64,000 bases of DNA from Xenophilus aerolatus. GTDB taxonomy: Bacteria > Pseudomonadota > Gammaproteobacteria > Burkholderiales > Burkholderiaceae_C. Shown piece after piece: positions 51,784 through 64,000 of the stretch. Numbering within the stretch: position 1 is the first letter of the stretch; each line of letters starts with the position of its first letter. The stretch is taken from NCBI GenBank assembly GCA_030418545.1, contig QAIB01000013.1, positions 1 through 64,000 of the forward strand, given 5' to 3'. The position numbers and the translations under genes are program-made. The notes under the pieces were generated by a model. It made no database searches. It saw only the letters and a program-made list of their open reading frames with translations, and was not told the DNA's origin.

Positions 51784-52455
51784 TCAGGCCCGCGCCGCGA
51801 AGCGCTTCTCCAGCCGCGACGCCAGCCAGGCGCCCGGATAGATCAGCAGGAAGTAGATGAGCCCCACCGCCGTGAGGATCTCCAGCGGGCGATAGAAGGC
51901 CGAGGACAGCGCGCGGCCCTGGTACATCAGTTCCTGCACAGCGATGACCGAGGCGATCGAGGTGTTCTTGGCCAGCTCGATGCCCCGGTTGGTGAAGGCC
52001 GGCAGCATGCGCGCCATGACCTGCGGCACGATCACCCGGCGCATCAGCTGCGCCCGGCTCATGCCCAGCGCGCGGCCGCCCTCCCACTGCCTGCGCGGGA
52101 TCGACGCCATGCCGCCGCGGAAGATCTCGGAGCAGTAGGCCGAGGCGTTGAGGATCAGCCCGCACAGCGCGGCGACCATCGGCGTCAGCTGCTGCCCTGT
52201 GAGGATCGGGAAGGCATAGAAGAACCAGATCAGCTGGATCATCACCGGCGTGTTGCGGAACACCTCGACATAGCTGCGGCCCACCGCCACCGCCACCGGT
52301 GCGCGCGCGCCGGTGGCCAGCGAGATGAAGAAGCCCAGCAGCATCGACGCCGGGAAGGCGATCGCCCACAGCAGCGCGGTCATGCCCACGCCCTTGAGCA
52401 GCACCGGGTAGTTCTGCACCACGGCGCTGAAGTCCCAGGTGAAGGCGGCGTTCAT
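51784..52455 (-). CDS. Amino-acid-type ABC transporter permease
   Basis: The 223-residue inner-membrane protein has five predicted helices and the HisM/GlnP-type EAA motif (RQWEGGRALGMSRAQLMRRV, IVPQVMARMLPAF). It forms the transport channel with the adjacent permease (overlap of 4 bases). Substrate is set by the binding protein at 53173. A polar amino acid or an opine-like compound is likely. Confidence 0.9.
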   Translation of the reverse strand: MNAAFTWDFSAVVQNYPVLLKGVGMTALLWAIAFPASMLLGFFISLATGARAPVAVAVGRSYVEVFRNTPVMIQLIWFFYAFPILTGQQLTPMVAALCGLILNASAYCSEIFRGGMASIPRRQWEGGRALGMSRAQLMRRVIVPQVMARMLPAFTNRGIELAKNTSIASVIAVQELMYQGRALSSAFYRPLEILTAVGLIYFLLIYPGAWLASRLEKRFAARA

Positions 52456-53132
52456 GCGGCGGCCCGCTCGGTGCCACGCGCCAGCCGCGCCTCGGCCAGG
52501 TGGGCCAGCGCGCTCAGCGTGAGCAGCGTGAAGAAGAAGATCAGCGCCACGCAGGTGTAGACCTCGAGCGGGCGGAAGGTGATCGAGTTGACCTGCATGG
52601 CGCGGTACAGCAGGTCGGAATAGGCCAGCGTGGAGGCCAGCGCCGTGGTCTTGATGAGCTCGAAGGAGCGTTCCATGAAGGGCGGCAGCATGCGCTGCGC
52701 GGCCTGCGGCAGCACCACGCGTCGCAGCACCCGCCCGGGCGTCATGCCCAGCGCGCGCGCCGCCTCCCACTGGCCGCGCTCGATGGACACCACGCCGCCG
52801 CGCATCACCTCGGCATAGAAGGCGCCCGACTGCGTCGACAGCGCGATGATGGCCGCGACGTACGGGTCCAGGCTCACGCCCAGCAGCACCGGCAAGGCGT
52901 AGAAGGCCCAGAAGAAGTGGATCAGCGGCGGCGTGTTGCGATAGAACTCGGTGAACCACAGCGCCGGCCAGGCCAGCCAGCGCCTGCCCGACAGCCGCAT
53001 CGTGGCCAGCAGCGCGCCGATGGCCACGCCGAAGGCGATCGCCACCGCGGCGATGCGCAGCGTGCCCAGCGCGCCCTCGAAGAGCATCTGGCGGTATTCC
53101 CAGACGGCGCCGAAGTCCCAGTCGTAGTTCAT
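52452..53132 (-). CDS. Amino-acid-type ABC transporter permease
   Basis: The 226-residue permease carries TEFYRNTPPLIHFFWAFYAL and an EAA loop (RGQWEAARALGMTPGRVLRR). It is paired with the following permease gene, with which it overlaps (ATGA). It starts 40 bases after the binding-protein gene. Its membrane topology and length are normal for polar-amino-acid permeases. Confidence 0.9.
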   Translation of the reverse strand: MNYDWDFGAVWEYRQMLFEGALGTLRIAAVAIAFGVAIGALLATMRLSGRRWLAWPALWFTEFYRNTPPLIHFFWAFYALPVLLGVSLDPYVAAIIALSTQSGAFYAEVMRGGVVSIERGQWEAARALGMTPGRVLRRVVLPQAAQRMLPPFMERSFELIKTTALASTLAYSDLLYRAMQVNSITFRPLEVYTCVALIFFFTLLTLSALAHLAEARLARGTERAAA

Positions 53133-53172
53133 CGTGCGATGGCGGTGCCTGCGGCGGCGATGGCGCCGCGCG

Positions 53173-54021
53173 TCAGAAGTTCTCGAGCGATTCCTTGGTC
53201 ACGCCGGGCTGCTTCGCCGGGTCGAGCCCCTTGGTCTTGAGGTACTGGCCATACAGCGCCTGCGTCTGGCCGGAGTCGTACATCTTCTTGAACTGCTGGT
53301 CGAGCAGCTCACGGAAGGCCGGGTCCTGCTCCTTGCGCACGCCGGCGCTGGTGGCGATGGCCACCACCGGCTTGGGCACCTGCACGCTGCCCTTCTTGAT
53401 CTTCGAGTAGGCGATGGCCAGCACCGAGTGGTAGAAGGCAATGGCGTCGACGCGGCCCGCGTTGAAGGCCGCCACCGTCTCGTCGGTGTTGGTGAAGCGC
53501 TCGATCTTCGCGTTGGGCAGGCGCTTGCTCAGGTCGCGATCGGTCGCGGTGCCCAGCGCCACGCCGATGCGCACCTCGGGCTTGTTGAGGTCGTCCCAGT
53601 TCTTGGCCGCCAGGCCGTCCTTGGCCAGGACGCCCTGCGCATACCAGAGCAGCGGCGTGGCCGGGAAGTCGATGGCGCGCTTGCGCTCCTCGGTCGCGTC
53701 GAGCACGAACATCACGTCGATCTGGCCCGACTGCAGCGCCGCCACGCTGTTGCCCCAGGTGGTCTCGACCGGCACGGTCTTCACGCCCATGGCCTTGCCG
53801 ATCTGCTCGCCCACCAGCACGCCCACGCCGGTCCACTGGCCCGACACCGGGTCGCGGAAGTACCACGGGTCGCCGGCGGCCACGCCGATCTTCAGCTCGC
53901 CGGACTGCTTGATCTTCTGCAGCGTCTGCGCCTGCGCGGCGGTGCCGGCCAGCAGGCCCAGACAGGCCAGGCCGAGGAGGAAGGTGCGGCGCCAGCCGGC
54001 GCGGATCGATGGGAAGGCCAT
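53173..54021 (-). CDS. Polar-amino-acid-type ABC binding protein
   Basis: The 282-residue protein has a signal peptide (FLLGLACLGLLAGTAAQA) and a type II binding-protein fold (LKIGVAAGDPWYFRDP, GVLVGEQIGKAMGVKTVPVE, ALQSGQIDVMFVLDATEERK, FNAGRVDAIAFY). It should capture an amino acid or related molecule in the periplasm for the two permeases downstream. The ligand-binding arginine usual for alpha-carboxylates is not certain by eye (VRIGVALGT region). It lies 100 bases after the aminotransferase-like gene. Confidence 0.9.
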   Translation of the reverse strand: MAFPSIRAGWRRTFLLGLACLGLLAGTAAQAQTLQKIKQSGELKIGVAAGDPWYFRDPVSGQWTGVGVLVGEQIGKAMGVKTVPVETTWGNSVAALQSGQIDVMFVLDATEERKRAIDFPATPLLWYAQGVLAKDGLAAKNWDDLNKPEVRIGVALGTATDRDLSKRLPNAKIERFTNTDETVAAFNAGRVDAIAFYHSVLAIAYSKIKKGSVQVPKPVVAIATSAGVRKEQDPAFRELLDQQFKKMYDSGQTQALYGQYLKTKGLDPAKQPGVTKESLENF

Positions 54022-54121
54022 TCGAAGCTCCTGGAGAGTGGGTGGATTGGAGGAAGAGACTGAGCGGAGGGAAAAAAAACGAACTGCAGGCGGTGTGCAG
54101 GAGGCGGCGGCGGCCGTCGCC

Positions 54122-55045
54122 TCAGGCGCCGATGTAGCGCTGGTACAGCGCGTTCAGCTGCGTCGTCAGCGGCCCCATGCCCTGCGTGGGCAGTGCACGG
54201 CCGTCGATGCGCGACACCGGCGAAAGGCCGCCCAGCGTGCCGGTGACGAAGGCCTCGTCGGCGTTGTAGACCTCGGCCAGCGTGTAGTCGCCCTCGTGCA
54301 CCGGGATGCCCGCCTCGCGCGCGAGCCGCAGCACCGTGGCGCGCGTGATGCCGTTGAAGCAGTAGCGCCCCGACGAGGTCCACAGCGCGCCGTTGCGCAC
54401 GATGAAGAAATTGGTCGAGTTGCAGCTGGAGACGAAGCCGTTGGGGTCGAGCATCAGCGCCTCGTCGGCACCGGCGTTGATGGCCTGGATGAGCGCCTGG
54501 ATGAAGTTCAGCCGGCTGTGCGAGTTCAGCCGCAGGTCGAACACGTCGGGCGTGCTGCAGCGGATGGTGGACGTGTGCAGCGCCAGGCCGCGCTGCTTGG
54601 CCGCGGCGTCGACCACCTTGTGCTCGGCCACGCACACCACCGTGGCGCTGCCGAGAATGAAGCGCGGGTCCTGGTTGGGCGTCTTCTTGACGCCGCGCGT
54701 GACCATCAGCCGCGCATGCGCACCGTCGTGCATGCCGTTGCGCTCGAAAGTCCGGGTGATCACGTCGCGCGCCTGCTGCTTGCTCAGCCCGATGTCCATG
54801 GCGATCGCCGCGGCGCCCTCGAACAGGCGGTCGATGTGGGCGTCGAAGGAGATCACCCGGCCCTTGACCAGGCGCACGCCCTCCCACACGCCGTCGCCGC
54901 ACACGTAGCCGGCGTCGAACACCGACACCACGGCCTCCTGGCGCGGCACGAAGCGGCCGTTGACGTACACGAGCACGCGCTCGTTGCGTGCGTCGGCCTG
55001 GTAGGCCTGGGAACTGGTGGTGGAGGCTTGCGGAGAAAGCTGCAT
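54122..55045 (-). CDS. Class IV aminotransferase homologue lacking the PLP lysine
   Basis: The 307-residue protein has the fold-type IV layout of branched-chain/D-amino-acid aminotransferases (VYVNGRFVPRQEAVVSVFDA, GDGVWEGVRLV, GADEALMLDPNGFV, NGITRATVLRLAREAGI). At the place of the Schiff-base lysine (xKSxxYL in active enzymes) it reads LRLNSHSRLN, with Asn174 aligned to Lys and no lysine nearby. The glutamate normally following GxVxE is replaced (GFVSSCNSTNFF). It may be inactive as a transaminase or use different chemistry. It is located between the ABC ATPase and binding-protein genes of one operon. Confidence 0.85.
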   Translation of the reverse strand: MQLSPQASTTSSQAYQADARNERVLVYVNGRFVPRQEAVVSVFDAGYVCGDGVWEGVRLVKGRVISFDAHIDRLFEGAAAIAMDIGLSKQQARDVITRTFERNGMHDGAHARLMVTRGVKKTPNQDPRFILGSATVVCVAEHKVVDAAAKQRGLALHTSTIRCSTPDVFDLRLNSHSRLNFIQALIQAINAGADEALMLDPNGFVSSCNSTNFFIVRNGALWTSSGRYCFNGITRATVLRLAREAGIPVHEGDYTLAEVYNADEAFVTGTLGGLSPVSRIDGRALPTQGMGPLTTQLNALYQRYIGA

Positions 55046-55076
55046 GGTGTGCGCAAAGGTGCGGAGGCCGGCGGCC

Positions 55077-55871
<795 letters not shown>

Positions 55872-55900
55872 GAAGCCTCGGCAGGGTTCGGAGCTGTTGG

Positions 55901-55913
55901 ATTGTTCGACAAT
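55901..55913. promoter_or_regulatory. Probable GntR (FadR-type) operator
   Basis: ATTGTTCGACAAT is a perfect inverted repeat (ATTGT TCG ACAAT); TTGTTCGACAA within it fits the FadR-subfamily consensus TNGTNNNACNA. A further half site CGACAAT follows at 55914-55920. It lies 30 bases upstream of the first gene of the operon that ends with the GntR gene, suggesting autoregulation. Confidence 0.65.
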
Positions 55914-56014
55914 CGACAATCGGGACGCAGCGTAGCACAGCCATGCGGCCTTGGGCGCGGCTTTTTTCGAGATCGAGTGGGCGGAAACGGGCGCACGCGA
56001 CTGCAGCGCCCATG

Positions 56015-56036
56015 AAAAAAGGCCCCGAAGGGCCTT
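56015..56036 (-). terminator. Rho-independent terminator
   Basis: AAGGCCC CGAA GGGCCTT (56019-56036) forms a perfect 7-bp stem with tetraloop. On the minus strand it is followed by a run of T (56020-56015), about 80 bases after the DUF2383 gene stop. TTCTTT on the other side could also allow weak termination on the plus strand. Confidence 0.8.
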
Positions 56037-56115
56037 CTTTGCTGCCTGTCGTGCCGGGCGGACCGGCCGGCAGCGATCCACCGGGCGCTGGCCCGGCAAC
56101 CGCCGGTCGTCCAGC

Positions 56116-56571
56116 TCAGGCGCGCGCCTTGGCTGCGTCGCGCAGGTCGCGGATCTGGTCGTGGTTCTTCTGCGCGCCCTGGGCCTGGCGCTCCACCACC
56201 GCGCGCACATCGGGCGGCAGCTCTTCCTTCAGCGCCTTGCGGTAGCGGGCGATGCCCGAGTCCTCGCCGCGCTCGCAGGACTCGAGGATCGACAGCTCGC
56301 TGTCGGCACCCACGGCGCCCTTGACCTTCACCCAGCCGCGGTGCAGCGCACCGGCGGCCGTGCCGCCGTCGGCCGGCTTGCCGCCGTATTGCACGATCAG
56401 CGCTTCGAGTTCCGAGGCGGCCTGTGCGCAGCCCGCGGCGCGGTCCGCGAACAGCGTCTTCAGGTTCGAGGCCTCGACCTCTTCGGCGCAGGTGCGAAAG
56501 CCGTACTCGCCGTCGCGGGCGTTTTCCAGCAGGTCGTTGAGCACGCTCACCACGTCCTTGTTGTCCATCAT
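56116..56571 (-). CDS. PA2169/DUF2383 four-helix-bundle protein
   Basis: The 151-residue protein matches the PA2169 (DUF2383) family, ferritin-like helical bundles (DVVSVLNDLLENARDGEYGF, LFADRAAGCAQAASELEALI, LESCERGEDSGIARYRKALK). Some family members are linked to stress or biofilm; no enzyme activity is known to me. AAGGA precedes the ATG at 56571 (a second ATG follows directly). A terminator lies downstream. It is not obviously linked to the flanking ABC operon or to the defence genes. Confidence 0.88.
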   Translation of the reverse strand: MMDNKDVVSVLNDLLENARDGEYGFRTCAEEVEASNLKTLFADRAAGCAQAASELEALIVQYGGKPADGGTAAGALHRGWVKVKGAVGADSELSILESCERGEDSGIARYRKALKEELPPDVRAVVERQAQGAQKNHDQIRDLRDAAKARA

Positions 56572-56826
56572 GTCGAATTCCTTCCTAGGTTGATCGGCAC
56601 CGCGTCGGCGCCGGGTGGATGGGTTTGAAGAGAAAGATCACTTCCGGAGAAGTTGAGAGCAACGATGGACGACGCCCGCCGCGCGCTGCGTCGTCGGTGG
56701 CGGCACGCGGGTGTAGGTGTGCGACGACCCGGCTTGCGCGTCGGGGTGCCAGCGGGGCGCAGGGCGGCGCGGGCAGCGTGTGGGGCGCGGCGCCGTGCTT
56801 TGGCGTCCAGCCGCGTGCCGACGCTT

Positions 56827-56892
56827 TGCTATCGAATCAGGAGCTGCTCGCGCACGCTGGACGGGCGCCGCGGACCCTTTTTCCTTGAAGCT
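56827..56892 (+). repeat. Dispersed repeat, copy D
   Basis: It contains GCTATCGAATCAGGAGCTGC, then TCGCGCACGCTGGACGGGCG and CCCTTTTTCCTTGAAG, in the same order as copy A (GCTGCTCGCGC ... CCCCTTTTCCTTG). It lies between the DUF2383 gene and the Mrr-like gene. Confidence 0.65.
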
Positions 56893-57015
56893 CCGGCGGG
56901 ATGCCCGCGCCCTGCGCGCGCCGCCGCACCGCGTCCGCCTTGCGTCACCTCAACGTTCTGATGACCTGCGACAAACGATAGGTACCGCTCATGTAACTAT
57001 CGATTTACATTTGTC

Positions 57016-57038
57016 AAAAAAGGGCCCGCAGAGCGGGC
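57016..57038 (-). terminator. Terminator-like hairpin in front of Mrr-like gene
   Basis: GCCCGC AGA GCGGGC (57024-57038) is preceded on the plus strand by AAAAAA, so on the minus strand it reads as a hairpin followed by TTTTTT. No minus-strand gene ends here. It could block antisense transcription or lie in the leader of the Mrr-like gene, whose ATG is 15 bases downstream. Confidence 0.5.
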
Positions 57039-57053
57039 GAGGAGAGAAGAGCG

Positions 57054-57809
57054 ATGGGTTGGCGAGACGTCATCGGCGCCGTGCTGGATGCGACGGCGGC
57101 CGCGCCTGCACCGCAGGCGCGCAGAACAACAGCAGAAAGCCACAAGGCGGCGGCACCGGCTTCCGACGCCAGGGCGAGCCTTGCGCGGCCACGGCCAGCC
57201 CGGCCCGCGCCGCCCGAGCCCGAGCGCCCGGCGCCAGAACGTGCATGGAGCGCCGCCGTCTTCGACCACATCGAATGGCGCCGCTTCGAGGCGGTCTGCG
57301 AAGCCCTCTTCGCCCAGAGCGGCATGCGCAGCGCGTCGCAGTCGCACGGTGCCGACGGCGGCGTCGACATCTGGCTGTATTCGCAACACAGCGACGAGCC
57401 CGTGATCGTGCAGTGCAAGCACTGGAAGAAGCGAGTCGTGGGCGTGAAGGAACTGCGCGAGTTCTATGGCGTGCTGAAGTCGCATGACCTCACGTACGGA
57501 ACCTTCGCCACAAGTTCCACCTTCAGCAGCGACGCGCTGGCGTTTGCGAAGAGCAACCGGATCAATGCGCAGGACCGGGAGGGATTGCTGCGGCTGATCG
57601 CCGGGCGCTCGGCGGAACAGCAGCAGGCGCTGCTCGACACGGCCTATGAGGGCGAGTACTGGAAGCCGACGTGCGTGAAGTGCGGGGTGAAGATGGTGCT
57701 GCGGGAGGGCAAGGGCAGCGAGTGGTTTTGGGGGTGCAGCAACTTTGCGAAAACCAGGTGCCGCAGCATCTTGAAGGCCGCTCAGGTCGGGACTTCCGCG
57801 CAAATTTGA
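57054..57809 (+). CDS. Mrr-like restriction endonuclease with C-terminal zinc finger
   Basis: The 251-residue protein has a basic Ala/Pro-rich linker (residues 20-65), then an Mrr-type PD-(D/E)xK nuclease domain (FDHIEWRRFEAVCEALFAQS, GADGGVDIWLY with the catalytic Asp, VIVQCKHWKK with Q-x-K) and a C-terminal topoisomerase-type zinc finger (CVKCGVKMVLR ... FWGCSNF ... CRS). Proteins of this kind cleave foreign or modified DNA. GAGGAGAGA precedes the ATG. It ends 28 bases before the first reverse transcriptase gene and has GC-rich composition like the host, unlike that gene. Confidence 0.88.
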   Translation: MGWRDVIGAVLDATAAAPAPQARRTTAESHKAAAPASDARASLARPRPARPAPPEPERPAPERAWSAAVFDHIEWRRFEAVCEALFAQSGMRSASQSHGADGGVDIWLYSQHSDEPVIVQCKHWKKRVVGVKELREFYGVLKSHDLTYGTFATSSTFSSDALAFAKSNRINAQDREGLLRLIAGRSAEQQQALLDTAYEGEYWKPTCVKCGVKMVLREGKGSEWFWGCSNFAKTRCRSILKAAQVGTSAQI

Positions 57810-57837
57810 ACCACTAACAGTGGAAGACGAATAAAGA

Positions 57838-59076
57838 ATGACATCAGATTTTTGGACAGACCGGCGGTTCGGGGGCGTGCTCCGCGCAGGCGACTCGCGT
57901 CGCTATGGCGTCGACATCAAGAGTGATCGGAAAACTCTTATAGATGCGGCGATAAAACTTGGAGTCTCAGGCATAGCGTCTTTCGCTCCAATATATCGAA
58001 CCTCAATTAAAGGCAGAGATTGCCATTCCATCAAAGACTATAGTCAAACTCTCGTTCTTCCACTAGTTGCGAAGCATTTGCACTATAAGCTCCGGAAGGA
58101 GCGGCCCACCCGAGACAGAATCGTAGTGAATGCGATAGAGTCCTTGACGGACGCATTGCCGATGTATGTAGTGCGGCGCGATATAAAGTCGTTCTACGAA
58201 ACGGTTCCCACTGATCCGCTTATGGACCGGCTCCTATCGACAACCTATTTGCCGGGCACAGTGAGGCGACACATCGTCTCGTTCTTTAAAACATTCAGCG
58301 GAAGCACCGGAATCCCGCGCGGCACTCCGCTAAGCCCAGTTCTAGCAGAGTTTGCTTTAAATGATTTCGATAAGCAAGTTCGCCGACTTCCGGGCGTATA
58401 CCGATATTTCAGATATGCTGACGACATACTAATTTTTTCGTATATCGAGCCGGAGGCACTTGCAAAAACGATCGAGCTGCTTCTCCCCAATGGAATGAAA
58501 TTCAATGCTGAGAAGTCTTCTGAAATCGCCCTCTGCGCTAAAAAAGGCTCTGCGTCAACGAAAAGCTTTGAATATTTAGGCTACGAATATCGAATGTCCG
58601 ATCTTGGCGGTGGCCCCCATCTTCGAACAGTGAATCTGGCAATATCTAAGAAGAAGATACAGAAAATCAAAACTAGAATTGTATTAACGCTTAAGTCTTT
58701 CGCGAGCAATGCTGATTTCCAACTTTGCAGGGATCGGATGAAATTTATCTCCGGCAACTATAGTGTTCAGCGGAAAGGAGCGAATTCAATAAAATCATCA
58801 AAAGAAGTAAAGTCCGGAATTTACTACAATTATAAGTTGTGCGGTGAATATAAGGAAGGCAGGAAAGGCGAGTACGACTGCGCAGAGCTCAAGCATATTG
58901 ACGGATTTTTCCAGTCGCTGATCAAGATCCACACGCCATTCGGCTCGAAGTTGACCGCGGCCCAGCGCCAGGAGCTATCAAAGATTTCGTTCGCCAAGGG
59001 ATTTACCCACAAATTCCACCACGACTTTGACGCCATGCGCATCGTCAGCATTAAATCGGTGTGGCGAAATGCCTAA
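57838..59076 (+). CDS. drt3a: Reverse transcriptase, DRT type 3 subunit A (UG3-like)
   Basis: The 412-residue protein is a complete RT domain: motif A VVRRDIKSFYE (Asp115), motif B GIPRGTPLSPVL (158-169), motif C YFRYADDILIF (YADD 193-196), and FEYLGYEY near 244-251. There is no maturase, endonuclease or retron-type extension. The tandem pair with a second, larger RT is the arrangement of DRT type 3 (UG3 + UG8), an anti-phage system. The gene is AT-rich (a sampled line is 45% GC) compared with about 70% or more around it, indicating transfer. It overlaps drt3b by 8 bases. The start at 57838 lies right after an AAAGA tract. Confidence 0.88.
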   Translation: MTSDFWTDRRFGGVLRAGDSRRYGVDIKSDRKTLIDAAIKLGVSGIASFAPIYRTSIKGRDCHSIKDYSQTLVLPLVAKHLHYKLRKERPTRDRIVVNAIESLTDALPMYVVRRDIKSFYETVPTDPLMDRLLSTTYLPGTVRRHIVSFFKTFSGSTGIPRGTPLSPVLAEFALNDFDKQVRRLPGVYRYFRYADDILIFSYIEPEALAKTIELLLPNGMKFNAEKSSEIALCAKKGSASTKSFEYLGYEYRMSDLGGGPHLRTVNLAISKKKIQKIKTRIVLTLKSFASNADFQLCRDRMKFISGNYSVQRKGANSIKSSKEVKSGIYYNYKLCGEYKEGRKGEYDCAELKHIDGFFQSLIKIHTPFGSKLTAAQRQELSKISFAKGFTHKFHHDFDAMRIVSIKSVWRNA

Positions 59077-60997
59077 GAAAATTGACAGAAAATTCTGGGT
59101 CTATCGGCCGCTGCTTACTGATACGCTGCCGTACGAAGTACCGATCGTTTTCAGCAACGACGCGTATTATCTTCGACTATGTCAACCCGCCGCTGCAGCG
59201 GATCAAGCGCCCATAGTTAAGAATATCTTGGAAAGATCGAAATCGACCCCGACCATCCCATATTCCTATCGAATAAAAAAAGACAGTACGAAGAAGACCT
59301 TGCTGGGACTCCCGCATCCCTTTGCTCAATTAGATATTTGCAATTTCTACGACCGCTACGAGTCGTCAATATTAACGGCTTGCGGAAGAAGCGATTTTTC
59401 GCTGCGGCACCCTGCAGGCATTGCTGCAGTATACGTCGAGGAGATGGAAGCGCCCGCCCATGCGCCGCTCAAAATTGGGCAGCCTCACATGGAGCCGGCG
59501 GCCGGCCAACCCGAACTGAGCCGAATTGTTTCCTACTTCACCTATCGCAAATTTTCACTACTAAGCAAATTCTATACCTCGCGTGAATTCATTGCATTGG
59601 AAAAGCAATTTAGACAACTCCGGCAAGTGGATGTGTCGAAATGCTTTTATAACATTTACACACACTCAATCAGTTGGGCCATGCGGAGCAAAAGTTTTGC
59701 GAAAGCAAACTTGAACACACCTTCGTTCGACACAATTTTTGACGGCCTAATGCAAAGAGCCAATCACAACGAAACGAACGGAATCATTGTCGGGCCTGAA
59801 TTTTCGAGAGTGTTCGCAGAGATAATCATGCAAGCCATTGACTTAAAGCTTGAAGAAGCTCTAAGGCAGAATGGGGCTATCAATGGCGTCCACTATGCGA
59901 TCCGACGTTACGTAGATGACTACTCTATATTTGCCCATTCGAATGATATTCTTGATCAAGTGGAAGTGGCACTCCGCGAGGGCCTGGAGGAGTTCAAGTT
60001 ACATATAAACGAAGCTAAGGTTAAAACTTTGGCACGCCCGTTTGTGACAAATCTGACTCAGGCGCGAAGCGACCTGAATGTTCGTCTTCACAGAATCAGA
60101 TCTGTGGCTGACAGTGCGGCCTTCGCTTCCAATGATTCGCTCACCATATTGCAACGTCATGAGTTCACATCGCTGTTAGCAGATCTAAGAGGTATCCTTA
60201 GTTCTCGCTCGACGGATGTCGCGGGCATAAGCGGTCAGATTCTTGGAGAGCTTAAAGTAATTCTTGCTAAGGCGCTTCGCGATGTCCCCGCGCTCGGTGC
60301 CTCAAGTCGAGAAAAATTGGACCTCGCAATTAATACTATTCTTGACATCGCGTTCTACATTGTTGCAATCGACCTGCGAGTAAGAACATCGTACAGCCTA
60401 TGCCAATTGCTGATTCGAGTGAAAGAGAAAACCTCTAGTGCCGACGAGTCCATCGCCGACCACTGTGCTTGGAAAATTCAGAAGGAATTATCGTCGATTA
60501 TCAAATCAACGATTAACCAAAGGCAGAGATCCGATACTTCAGATTGCATCGAATTGTACAATTTACTTATATGTGGTGCTCATCTGTATGGTGACGAGTT
60601 TGTGCGCAATCGAGATATCGCATTTGCCATAGGTCGTTTGGGCCAAGAAAAACTAACCTACTTTAAGTATGTATGTACTAAATACTGCATGCTCCGAGAT
60701 AAGACATTTTTCGCCAAAGAACTAAACTCATTGAATGGAAAAGCAGAGACATTTATAGAAGACAAAGAGCGATTTATGACAGAAAGCGAGTGCTATCACT
60801 TGGCGTGCGACTATTGGAGCGCACCCGATATTTCAATGAGCGATAAGCTCAAGCTGTATAAAAAGCTATTCGGCGGTAACCCGTCCACAATCTCGTTCGA
60901 GAACGCCGTCAAATCGCTAGGATTTGTCGATTGGTCGGGTGTGTCAATCGAGCACGCGCTGAAGCGCAGGCAGCTTCGCCCCGTTTATTCTGTGTGA
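59069..60997 (+). CDS. drt3b: Reverse transcriptase, DRT type 3 subunit B (UG8-like)
   Basis: The 642-residue protein has an RT core with motif A LRQVDVSKCFYNIY (Asp188), motif B NGIIVGPEFSRVFAEI (about 238-252) and motif C IRRYVDDYSIFA (YVDD 281-284), preceded by an N-terminal extension (YSYRIKKDSTKKTLLGLPHP, LDICNFYDRYES) and followed by about 300 mostly helical residues of no known domain. Size and order match the partner RT of DRT type 3. Both catalytic aspartates of YxDD are intact. The start overlaps the drt3a stop, so the pair is coupled. A structured ncRNA candidate begins 10 bases after the stop. Confidence 0.88.
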   Translation: MPKKIDRKFWVYRPLLTDTLPYEVPIVFSNDAYYLRLCQPAAAADQAPIVKNILERSKSTPTIPYSYRIKKDSTKKTLLGLPHPFAQLDICNFYDRYESSILTACGRSDFSLRHPAGIAAVYVEEMEAPAHAPLKIGQPHMEPAAGQPELSRIVSYFTYRKFSLLSKFYTSREFIALEKQFRQLRQVDVSKCFYNIYTHSISWAMRSKSFAKANLNTPSFDTIFDGLMQRANHNETNGIIVGPEFSRVFAEIIMQAIDLKLEEALRQNGAINGVHYAIRRYVDDYSIFAHSNDILDQVEVALREGLEEFKLHINEAKVKTLARPFVTNLTQARSDLNVRLHRIRSVADSAAFASNDSLTILQRHEFTSLLADLRGILSSRSTDVAGISGQILGELKVILAKALRDVPALGASSREKLDLAINTILDIAFYIVAIDLRVRTSYSLCQLLIRVKEKTSSADESIADHCAWKIQKELSSIIKSTINQRQRSDTSDCIELYNLLICGAHLYGDEFVRNRDIAFAIGRLGQEKLTYFKYVCTKYCMLRDKTFFAKELNSLNGKAETFIEDKERFMTESECYHLACDYWSAPDISMSDKLKLYKKLFGGNPSTISFENAVKSLGFVDWSGVSIEHALKRRQLRPVYSV

Positions 60998-61007
60998 TAA
61001 TGTTTTC

Positions 61008-61169
61008 GGCCGCGCTGAGCGCGAAGAGATCACCGGCGAAGGGCGCACCTGTAGCCGGTTTACAACGCAGTCGCAAGAATGCGTTGGGCTGCGGAGAGTG
61101 ACTTTGAAGCGCCGGAAGGTGCCGATTAGTGCTGGAAGCAGCACACACATGCCGAGCCTCAGCGTGGCC
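61008..61169 (+). ncRNA. Candidate DRT3 ncRNA with CACACACA tract
   Basis: The region folds by eye into a closed structure: terminal stem 61008-61019 with 61158-61169 (12 bp, one G-U); hairpin ACCGGC/GCCGGT (61032-61037 with 61054-61059); hairpin CAACGCA/TGCGTTG (61063-61069 with 61080-61086); hairpin GCGCC GGAA GGTGC (61109-61122); hairpin GTGCTG GAAG CAGCAC (61129-61144). CACACACA (61142-61149) directly follows and partly enters the last stem. DRT3 systems are reported, as I recall, to use an ncRNA with an AC-repeat template. Ends and expression are inferred. Confidence 0.72.
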
Positions 61170-61182
61170 ACCTCTCTATGGG

Positions 61183-61275
61183 CGGAAAGCAGCCGGAGTC
61201 GAACCGACCAGGAAGCGGCTGGCGCCCCCTACCGGGTTTGAAGCCCGGGCGCACCACCGGGTGCGTTTGCCTTCC
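61183..61275 (-). tRNA. selC: tRNA-Sec (UCA)
   Basis: The minus strand gives a selenocysteine tRNA: 8-bp acceptor stem GGAAGGCA / TGCTTTCC, anticodon stem CCGGG / CCCGG with loop CTTCAAA (anticodon TCA at 61239-61241), a long variable arm, and the T loop GGTTCGACTCC. The discriminator is G. The length of 93 bases without CCA is typical of the family, and CCA does not appear to be encoded exactly (GCCCA follows). selB lies 212 bases upstream of its 5' end on the same strand. Its 3' end faces the DRT3 module, 13 bases away. Confidence 0.93.
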
Positions 61276-61312
61276 GAATAGAAAACTCAATCCCCATGCC
61301 GCTTCGCGAGAA

Positions 61313-61371
61313 GGCCGGCGCCTGAGGCGCCGGCCGTTCAGGCTGTCCAAGCCTGCGCAGGCAGGCTTGGA
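61313..61371. repeat. Two perfect GC hairpins between selC and selB
   Basis: GGCCGGCGCC TGA GGCGCCGGCC (61313-61335, 10 bp) and an 11-bp stem TCCAAGCCTGC / GCAGGCTTGGA (61346-61371) lie in tandem. Neither is followed by a T-run. They may act as processing or termination signals between selB and selC, or belong to a repeat family. Bases 61372-61487 hold no gene. Confidence 0.6.
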
Positions 61372-61487
61372 GCCGCAGCCTTCACCCCCCTTCTGCGCGA
61401 AGGGGGCGCACCCAGCGGCCTGGCAGAGCCAGTTCCGCGGGTGCCCTGAGTTTGAATCGTGCCCCGATCGGCCGAGGCGGCGCGATT

Positions 61488-63812
61488 CTAGGGGGCGTGG
61501 CTCATGTCCTCGCTCTCGGGTCCCTCCGCGCCCCAGCGGGTATTCGGGCGCGGCAGGTGTGCGTCGCCGACGCGGCGGGTGTAGCCGACGCGGTCGAAGA
61601 ACTCGAGGATCTGGATGGCGCGCTTGCGGCCGAGCTGCACGGCGTCGCGGAAGGCGCGGGCTTCGACGGCGCCTGGGGGAAGACGGGCGGTGCGCGGCGC
61701 GGCCTTGGGGGGCGGCTTCGACAGGCTCAGCCCGGACGGTGGGGGGTGGTCGGGGGCTGAAGCGGGTGTGGGAGCGGGCGTGGGTGTGGGCTCGGACGCT
61801 TCGCCTTGGGCCTGAGGCTCGGTGAGCGACGCCGCGCTGAGCGCGGCGAAGGTGGCGGCCAGTTCGGCGATGCGCTCTGCGGGGTAGAACAGGTCCTTCA
61901 CCACTTGGTACAGGGCGCCCAGCCGGGCCTGCTTGCGCAGCAGCTCGCGCACGGTGTCTTCGCGCGTGCCGATGGCCTTGGCGAGGTCGCGCACCCAGGG
62001 CGGGTCGTTGCCGCCCGCGAGCAGCAGGGGCATGAGCTGCGCGGCCATGGCGCTTTCGTCGTCGCTCAGGCGGACGCTGTGGCCGGGCAGGTGCAGCCAC
62101 TGGCCGCTGCGGGCGACGGTGCCTTCGGCCACCAGCTTGTCGAGCCACGACGACCAGCCGGGCAGCGCCGCACGGAAGGCCGACTGGGCCGGGAAGGCCA
62201 TGCGCTGCAGGCGCGCGCTGTTGAGGCCGGGCTCGTCGGGCGCGCGGGCGTGGTGGCGCTCCAGCGCGCCGACGATCCGGGCCTGCACCTGCGCCCACAC
62301 GGCGGGCGACAGCCACAGCAGGTCGGCATTGCCGCCCATGCCCGGGGCGCCCAGCGCCGAACCCGCGAGCGGGCCGGCCTGGCCGAGGGCAAAGGCGGGC
62401 GCGTCGGCACCGGCCCAGCCGGGGTCGGGCAGGCGGCCCAGCAGGCGCGTCAACAGACTGCGCGTGAGGCCGGCGGGCGCGACGGCGAGCAGCGGGCGCG
62501 CGTCGCCACCTGCGCCGCCGCCGGCGCCGACGAGGGCTTCCATCGCGTCGAGCCACTGCATGCGCTCGGCGCTGCGGCGGCGGCGCTCGGGCGCCTGCTG
62601 GTCGAGCACGACGCCGCCGCCCACGGTGCGCGTGCCCTGCGCGTTGCGCAGGATGAAGCGGTCGCCGGGCACGACGAAGACGGGCTGGTCGAAGACGAGC
62701 TGCACGCGGGCGCCGGCACGGGCGGCCGCGGCACCGGCGCCGTCTGCGGCCGCCGACACGGTGTCGGCTTCCAGCGGCACGGCATGGGCCAGGCGGTGCA
62801 TGGCGCCCAGGTGCACGTGCAGCGGCGTCCAGGCGGCGATGGGCGGCGCACCGCCCAGCAGGCGCACGCGCACGTCGATGCGCTGGGTGGCCTGCAGCAC
62901 GCGTGCGTCGGCGATCCAGTCGCCCCGCGCGATGTCGCTCTTGTCGACGCCGGCCAGGTTGAGGGCCACGCGCTGCCCGGCCGCGCCCTGCTCGGCCGCG
63001 CGGTTCTGCGCATGCAGGCTGCGCACGCGCACGGCGCGCGGGGGCGCGTGCCCGTCGCCCGAGCCGGCGCCGAAGTGCGCGATGGTGTCGCCGGCCAGCA
63101 CGGCGCCGCCGAAGACGGTGCCGGTGACGACGGTGCCGTGGCCCGGGAGGGTGAAGACGCGGTCGACCGCGAGGCGGAAGAGGCCGTCCTTGCGGCGGGC
63201 GTGCTGGCGGCGGGCGATGGCGAAGAGGTGGGTGCGCAGCGCGGTGATGCCGGTGGGGTCGGCCGCGGCGGGCTGCCCCTCACCCCCGCCCTCTCCCTGG
63301 AGCGGCAAGGGCGTCGCGCCCGGAGGCACGGCGGTCTCGAAGATCGGCGCGCCGGCCAGGGGCGTGCCGGCGAGCAGCGCGGCGATGTCGGCCTTGACGG
63401 CGGCAATGCGGGCGGCGTCGACGCGGTCGCATTTCGTGAGGGCCACGGTGCCTTCGCCGATGCCGAAGAGCTCGACGATGGCGAGGTGCTCGCGCGTCTG
63501 CGGCATGACGCCGTCGTCGGCGGCCACGACCAGCAGCGCATGGTCGATGCCCGAGGCGCCGGCCGCCATGGTGTGGACGAAGCGTTCATGGCCGGGCACG
63601 TCGATGATGCCGAGCACCTGGGCCGGGTCGTCGCCGGGCATGGCGGCCGATGCGTCGCCCGGCCCGGCCGGCACCGGGGTGTAGGCGTAGCCCAGCTCGA
63701 TGGAGATGCCGCGCGCCTTTTCTTCCTTCAGCCGGTCGGTGTCGACGCCGGTGAGGGCGCGCACCAGCGTGGTCTTGCCATGGTCGATGTGGCCGGCGGT
63801 GCCGAGGATCAT
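61488..63812 (-). CDS. selB: Selenocysteine-specific elongation factor SelB
   Basis: The 774-residue GTPase delivers Sec-tRNA to UGA codons with a SECIS element. G-domain motifs are GHIDHGKT (7-14), DVPGH (71-75) and TKCD (126-129); beta-barrel domains and C-terminal winged helices (for mRNA binding) follow. It is much longer than the 614-residue E. coli protein. Two inserts come from DNA repeats: [11 protein letters not shown] (about 169-179) and a Pro/Ala/Thr-rich linker with [10 protein letters not shown] near the end. The ATG at 63812 ([14 protein letters not shown]) follows GGAG; longer N-terminal sequence is not conserved in type. Confidence 0.95.
61714..61742 (+). repeat. TTCGACAGGCTCAG-type repeat in frame in selB
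   Basis: GGCTTCGACAGGCTCAGCCC followed by GGACGG is a variant of the TTCGACAGGCTCAG element I recall as widely scattered in proteobacterial intergenic DNA. On the coding strand it encodes SGLSLSKP inside a low-complexity linker between winged-helix domains of SelB. Confidence 0.55.
63276..63312 (-). repeat. CCCTCACCCC-type repeat in frame in selB
   Basis: CCCCTCACCCCCGCCCTCTC followed by CCTGGAGCGGCAAGGG matches the element at 28004-28037. It encodes [12 protein letters not shown] within the SelB G domain just before the second barrel. Confidence 0.6.
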
Positions 63813-63930
63813 GCGGCGCTCCGCGGGCGATGCATGGGGGCGGGTGTGCACAGGGGCGAGGTCGAAGGGGCGCGGCGCATGGCGGGATTGTGCGTGGGGC
63901 GGCGGCGATGGCCCGTGCATGCCGCCCCTG

Positions 63931-64000
63931 TAGGCAGGCGCCGCGAAGGGCTGTCGACGCCAGCGCGTGGTCAGCTTCGCCGAAGGTGGGGCCGCCTACC
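63931..64000. repeat. Short element with terminal inverted repeats at window end
   Basis: It begins TGTAGGCAGGCGCC and ends GGGGCCGCCTACC, giving near-matching terminal inverted repeats around a core that includes CTTCGCCGAAGG. No gene is supported between the selB start and the window end. I recall similar sequences in Variovorax-like genomes, but this is unverified. Confidence 0.45.

Follow-up and report, generated by a model that had tools for sequence, protein, structure and literature searches.

The closest described system to the one treated here is the type 3 defence-associated reverse transcriptase system (DRT3) of Escherichia coli, EcoDRT3, which is encoded in the order drt3a, drt3b, noncoding RNA (ncRNA). 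According to the main text of the preprint that describes it (PMC13174585), Drt3a copies the ACACAC stretch of the ncRNA into poly(dTdG), and Drt3b, which needs no nucleic acid template, primes poly(dCdA) from its own Y666 and uses E22 and R241 to select dA and dC; the two strands then pair into double-stranded DNA (dsDNA). The same text reports that E. coli lacking any one RecBCD component is unable to keep DRT3, and that the phage RecBCD inhibitor Gam sets off growth arrest in DRT3 cells. In DRT3 it documents a polymerase for which amino acids dictate the sequence of the product. A 6:6:6 complex is described in a review (PMC13314766, citing Deng et al. 2026), and about 97% of UG3 reverse transcriptases (RTs) are reported to adjoin a UG8 RT (PMC8934634). 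Here we analyze a locus of this kind at positions 57838-61169 of a 64,000-nucleotide stretch of Xenophilus aerolatus DNA (contig QAIB01000013.1), which as a whole we call the window.

Gene layout and family assignment

Two complete RT genes lie on the forward strand. The first, drt3a (57838-59076), encodes a class 2 (UG3) RT of 412 amino acids with the motif YADD at residues 193-196, and the second, drt3b (59069-60997), encodes a class 1 (UG8) RT of 642 amino acids with YVDD at residues 281-284; the genes overlap by 8 bases (59069-59076). The open reading frames (ORFs) and their translations agree on this point with the original prediction, made from the letters alone, of two complete overlapping RTs with these motifs, and its statement that all catalytic aspartates are intact is borne out by alignment with relatives (D115, D195 and D196 in Drt3a; D188, D283 and D284 in Drt3b). 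An alternative Drt3b start given by the ORF lister, TTG at 59027 (656 amino acids), is less likely than the ATG at 59069 (642 amino acids), because the alignable part of the relatives starts at about that ATG.

The pair had been assigned to DRT type 3 as a small UG3-like RT beside a larger UG8-like one, and profile searches lead to the same assignment. Drt3a reaches 310.8 bits against NCBIfam NF041747 (cut-off 200) and Drt3b 556.5 bits against NF041748 (cut-off 350); the best PADLOC families are Drt3a (6.7e-98) and Drt3b (5.9e-169), and an ACACAC run follows downstream. The best solved sequence relatives are PDB 9z6y_A for Drt3a (E = 2.1e-33) and PDB 26cz_A (E = 3.6e-94) and 9z6y_H (E = 5.7e-80) for Drt3b; the matches to the DRT3 of 9z6y/9z6z extend over nearly whole chains, at low identity. 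PDB 26cz appears to be the Drt3b of EcoDRT3, to judge by a 108-residue offset that puts E22 and R241 on its Glu130 and Arg349. The AlphaFold model of the window Drt3b (mean predicted local distance difference test score 82.9, lowest at residues 121-153 and 638-642) has an RT domain with a helical domain C-terminal to it. The first ten matches in the fold search were class 1 entries of DRT6, UG15, DRT4 and AbiK, and these would be the nearest solved folds to the model, with an RT and a helical repeat domain in common; they differ in being single-RT systems with no Drt3a partner, and are 14-18% identical to Drt3b across those ten matches. The entry 9z6y was not among the 50 fold matches listed (structure database copy to 8 April 2026).

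With EcoDRT3 the locus shares the gene order, the YxDD motifs and the downstream ACACAC, and the selecting and priming residues are also kept: E23, R247 and Y640 (of 642) in the window Drt3b correspond to E22, R241 and Y666. E. coli Drt3b proteins of two types (those of loci L045 and L047) are 31% and 28% identical to it. The nearest relative found is the DRT3 of Limnohabitans sp. 2KL-1 (L003), with 49% identity in Drt3a and 45% in Drt3b. Arg stands at the R241 position in all of 36 Drt3b sequences compared, and at the E22 position 30 of them have Glu and 6 have Asp. The six with Asp at this gate (L034, L056, L062, L063, L067, L072) still have an ACACAC template downstream.

The host genome contains one Drt3b match and one Drt3a match above cut-off, a second, weak Drt3a match being drt3b itself, and positions 54001-64000 of the window, the 10,000 bases compared, are 100% identical to Xenophilus sp. 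E41. Counting the present genome in each sample, Drt3b is above cut-off in 2 of 369 class-sample, 2 of 398 phylum-sample and 4 of 299 family-sample genomes. We consider it very probable that the locus is an anti-phage operon of the DRT3 type with all its parts. Both the system and how it works have already been published, and the Xenophilus copy is an ordinary, intact member; the functional appearance attributed to it fits what can be read in the sequence, namely the genes, motifs, template and predicted RNA fold.

The downstream RNA element and the proposed working

A structured RNA candidate had been placed within 10 bases of drt3b, ending at 61169. The candidate ncRNA (61008-61169, forward strand) does start 10 bases 3' of the drt3b stop, and that end coincides exactly with the end of a 12-bp closing helix in the predicted fold (61008-61019 with 61158-61169), which sets both of its limits. 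Further hairpins are predicted inside the closing helix. One of them, a 6-bp hairpin at 61129-61144 (forward strand, loop 61135-61138) found in both the minimum-free-energy and the centroid structures, stands directly 5' of the template, and its 3' arm includes the initial three bases of CACACACA (61142-61149, forward strand), the run near the 3' end of the element in which the ACACAC template is read at 61143-61148. The stretch 61006-61175 folds at -80.6 kcal/mol (z = -3.63), which was equalled by 1 of 200 dinucleotide shuffles, and 13 of 2000 mononucleotide shuffles of the 45 bases 3' of the template gave an equally good closing helix. Rfam has no family for the element at gathering scores, nor up to E = 1. 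The Limnohabitans locus shares both the closing helix and CACACACATG.

The order drt3a, drt3b, ACACAC recurs in the relatives. Of 42 loci, 41 have ACACAC within the 300 nucleotides (nt) that follow the drt3b stop, where about 2.3 would be expected from shuffles that keep dinucleotides; near-duplicates are included (e.g., L045/L046/L049, L047/L048, L050/L051, L052/L073 and L056/L074), and the 42 loci are therefore not independent systems. Two controls were run: the motif lies on the antisense strand of these 300 nt in 1 of 42 loci, and 500-800 nt after the stop in 2 of 42, some of which have less sequence there, this control being shorter or absent where the locus sequence ends (e.g., L062). 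Left out of the 42 were the window's own sequence (L001, L002); partial matches below the Drt3b cut-off, presumed to be other RTs without a family search of their own (L005-L032); loci with Drt3b annotated in two pieces (L037) or lying in two frames (L061, L065, L071); and weak matches (L076-L080). The survey illustrates how constant the ACACAC repeat is across distant DRT3. For the helix, 40 of these loci were testable, since L075 has no ACACAC and in L064 it lies too near the stop. In 17 of the 40, no more than 5 of 100 mononucleotide shuffles of the 45 bases 3' of the template gave a helix as good as the best one around the template, where about 2 such loci would be expected by chance. Closing-helix sequences vary widely among loci while their position is similar, and a MAFFT alignment of 16 ncRNAs was too rough for a count of covariation.

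By homology with the published E. coli work, from which the activities, the priming and the abortive infection are carried over, the Xenophilus operon would work as follows. The ACACAC run of the ncRNA would be the template from which Drt3a makes poly(dTdG), and Drt3b, primed by Tyr640 and with E23 and R247 as its dA and dC gates, would make poly(dCdA) without a template; the two products would anneal into repetitive dsDNA. A host exonuclease would clear this dsDNA, as RecBCD does in E. coli; here the remover is probably an AddAB-like enzyme, a role that we infer because the host gave no RecC match. If a phage were to block this nuclease, the dsDNA would accumulate and growth would stop.

Arginine 71, host nucleases and other readings

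Several observations weigh against taking the locus as a conventional, working DRT3. Closing-helix support is absent in 23 of the 40 testable loci, including three of E. coli (L045, L046, L049); EcoDRT3b R71, which contacts the incoming adenine, is replaced by Thr77 in the window Drt3b; RecC has 0 matches in the host genome (listed as 100% complete; profile search); and a simple scan for sigma-70 promoters gave 2 where 3.3 would be expected, with none that stood out. A terminator scan of the same simple kind also stayed at chance level (6 found, 5.5 expected). As to the helix, nine of the unsupported loci (L039-L042, L047, L048, L066, L068, L070) have the template only 41-68 nt after the stop, and for this reason their 5' arm might lie inside the gene, or their RNA might be built otherwise. 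In the other 14, L045, L046 and L049 of E. coli among them, the gap is longer, yet helix support is lacking there too.

The replacement of R71 bears on what Drt3b makes. The position is Thr in the window and in Limnohabitans L003 and Asn in the Phaeobacter locus L033; the remaining 33 of 36 sequences have Arg. Since the three exceptions form one clade (support 0.998), a single loss of R71 in that branch is the simplest reading. We therefore weighed the alternative that this branch is a DRT3 variant in which loss of the adenine-stacking arginine has altered the product or the base selection of Drt3b. The main text of PMC13174585 speaks for it in one respect, in that EcoDRT3b R71A gave no detectable CA repeats in cells and R71K did; in vitro, however, both R71A and R71K kept partial synthesis. 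Moreover, none of the three proteins has lost the equivalents of E22, R241 or the priming tyrosine, and all three loci retain the ACACAC template, which would be complementary to (CA)n. In the window, Lys75 and Lys76 stand just before Thr77, although no one basic residue is common in register to L003 and L033. An altered product thus seems unlikely, if the best placed of the alternatives. A natural Drt3b lacking one base-contacting residue tests which residues are really needed.

The second difference from EcoDRT3 concerns the host, because E. coli DRT3 hosts have RecBCD. With RecC not found in Xenophilus, either the trigger must differ or AddAB stands in. RecB gave 11 matches in the host genome, none above cut-off. 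An AddA/AddB-like pair is present on contig C22 (1796-7764 of L131), with 309.4 bits for AddA and 88.6 for AddB, well under both NCBIfam cut-offs (860.75 and 486.5 bits); perhaps it is of a form outside the coverage of the alphaproteobacterial and Gram-positive models. The host also has GreA (189.3 bits, cut-off 139), which is required for DRT3 defence in E. coli. We compared six DRT3 hosts. RecC is above cut-off in three of them (G202, G904, G759) and unmatched in three (the present genome, G000, together with G932 and G710), so that DRT3, as far as these profile matches go, is not confined to RecBCD hosts. The best AddA scores in G000, G932 and G710 are 300.5, 324 and 1226.8 bits, against 118.5-134.9 in the hosts with RecC; the AddA cut-off is passed by one of the six (G710). 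From these six genomes we infer that AddAB takes the place of RecBCD in DRT3 hosts without RecC. Our literature search found no paper naming both AddAB and DRT3, and the main text of the preprint (PMC13174585) mentions neither AddAB nor AddA. A host without a RecC match tests whether the guard model needs RecBCD or any such enzyme.

Taking both differences together, we tentatively suggest, as a proposal that may well prove wrong, that DRT3 in this branch works without the adenine-stacking arginine and under a guard of the AddAB rather than the RecBCD type. The E22 and R241 equivalents, perhaps with a neighbouring lysine, would keep the product alternating, and phages that block AddAB would also trigger the system. 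If this is true, the published models of base selection and triggering are special cases.

Expression bears on a further alternative, that the operon is intact in sequence but silent or inactive in its present host. The sigma-70 scan and the missing RecC would be compatible with it, as would the absence of Drt3b at E <= 1e-40 from all three congeners searched (G814, G914, G990). Against this, the operon retains two full-length frames, the catalytic, gate and priming residues, the closing helix and the template, a combination not expected of a decaying operon, and we therefore regard silence as improbable. That other RTs, of group II introns, retrons or CRISPR systems, came to lie side by side by chance is extremely improbable, because the generic RT-domain matches to such models all fall far below the Drt3a and Drt3b scores and, in NCBIfam, below their own cut-offs (Drt3a: group II intron RT 73.5 of 300 bits, retron St85 41.5 of 235; Drt3b: group II intron RT 38.2 of 300, retron RT 21.6 of 235), and Rfam gives no intron or retron RNA family at the locus at gathering scores.

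Surroundings and divergent two-RT loci

Upstream of the operon, a gene for an Mrr-like nuclease of 251 amino acids (57054-57809, forward strand; Pfam Mrr_cat 95.9 bits, cut-off 21) ends 28 bp before drt3a. It is a neighbour, perhaps co-transcribed with drt3a, and we do not assign it to DRT3. The 3 kb read upstream of the Limnohabitans operon contain no Mrr-like gene; what precedes DRT3 there is a long ORF, read as helicase-like without a family search. On the right the operon is bounded by selC, the gene for tRNA-Sec (61181-61275, reverse strand; ARAGORN, with Rfam RF01852 at 72.6 bits over 61184-61275).

The same surroundings carry other genes in congeners. In G990 (L096, 442-4509), an Mrr-like nuclease and selC flank an ABC-three-component system (CTD9, MC5 and an LmuB-like ATPase), which occupies the interval between them. 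In G914 (L098, 1521-6757), an Mrr-like nuclease is followed by Gabija-like genes (GajA, and two ORFs that match GajB) and by a tRNA, while selC is on a different contig from the Mrr-like gene. This tRNA (L098, 6947-7036) is called tRNA-Ser (tga) by ARAGORN and is 88% identical over 93 bases to the selC region of the window; it is perhaps a derived selC copy. The Mrr-like nuclease gave no match in G814. On the basis of the two congeners, the interval from the Mrr-like gene to selC resembles a defence hotspot whose cargo varies. No empty site as such was found in G814, G914 or G990. Among the 20 direct-repeat families listed, of at least 60, in 52000-61500, none is a second selC-like repeat beyond the operon, and an att-bounded element is therefore not supported.

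A further set of loci carries two RTs that are more distant from these families: L075 (2599-5965), L093 (2326-5863), L095 (2493-6004) and L100 (2444-6025). In the first three, both RTs best match PADLOC Drt3a and Drt3b, yet fall under the NCBIfam cut-offs; L100 was placed only by tblastn to L095. None of the four showed a sense-strand ACACAC downstream of drt3b. The complementary strand has it between the two RT genes in L095 and L100, and about 120 nt after drt3b that strand reads ACACACA in L093 and CACACA in L075, suggesting that the ncRNA of these loci may be encoded antisense; L075 and L100 also have a sense-strand ACACAC inside drt3b. Finally, three near-identical loci on Lactobacillaceae plasmids (L094, 2557-6010; L127 and L128, 2569-6022) have divergent Drt3a-like and Drt3b-like genes. 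The proteins of L094, the only ones scanned of the three, score 185 of 200 and 285.3 of 350 bits, under the NCBIfam cut-offs. In the 244-nt gap between the genes, the strand that encodes Drt3a carries ACACAC within a fold that a GCCTCG/CGAGGC helix closes, possibly an ncRNA upstream of drt3a.

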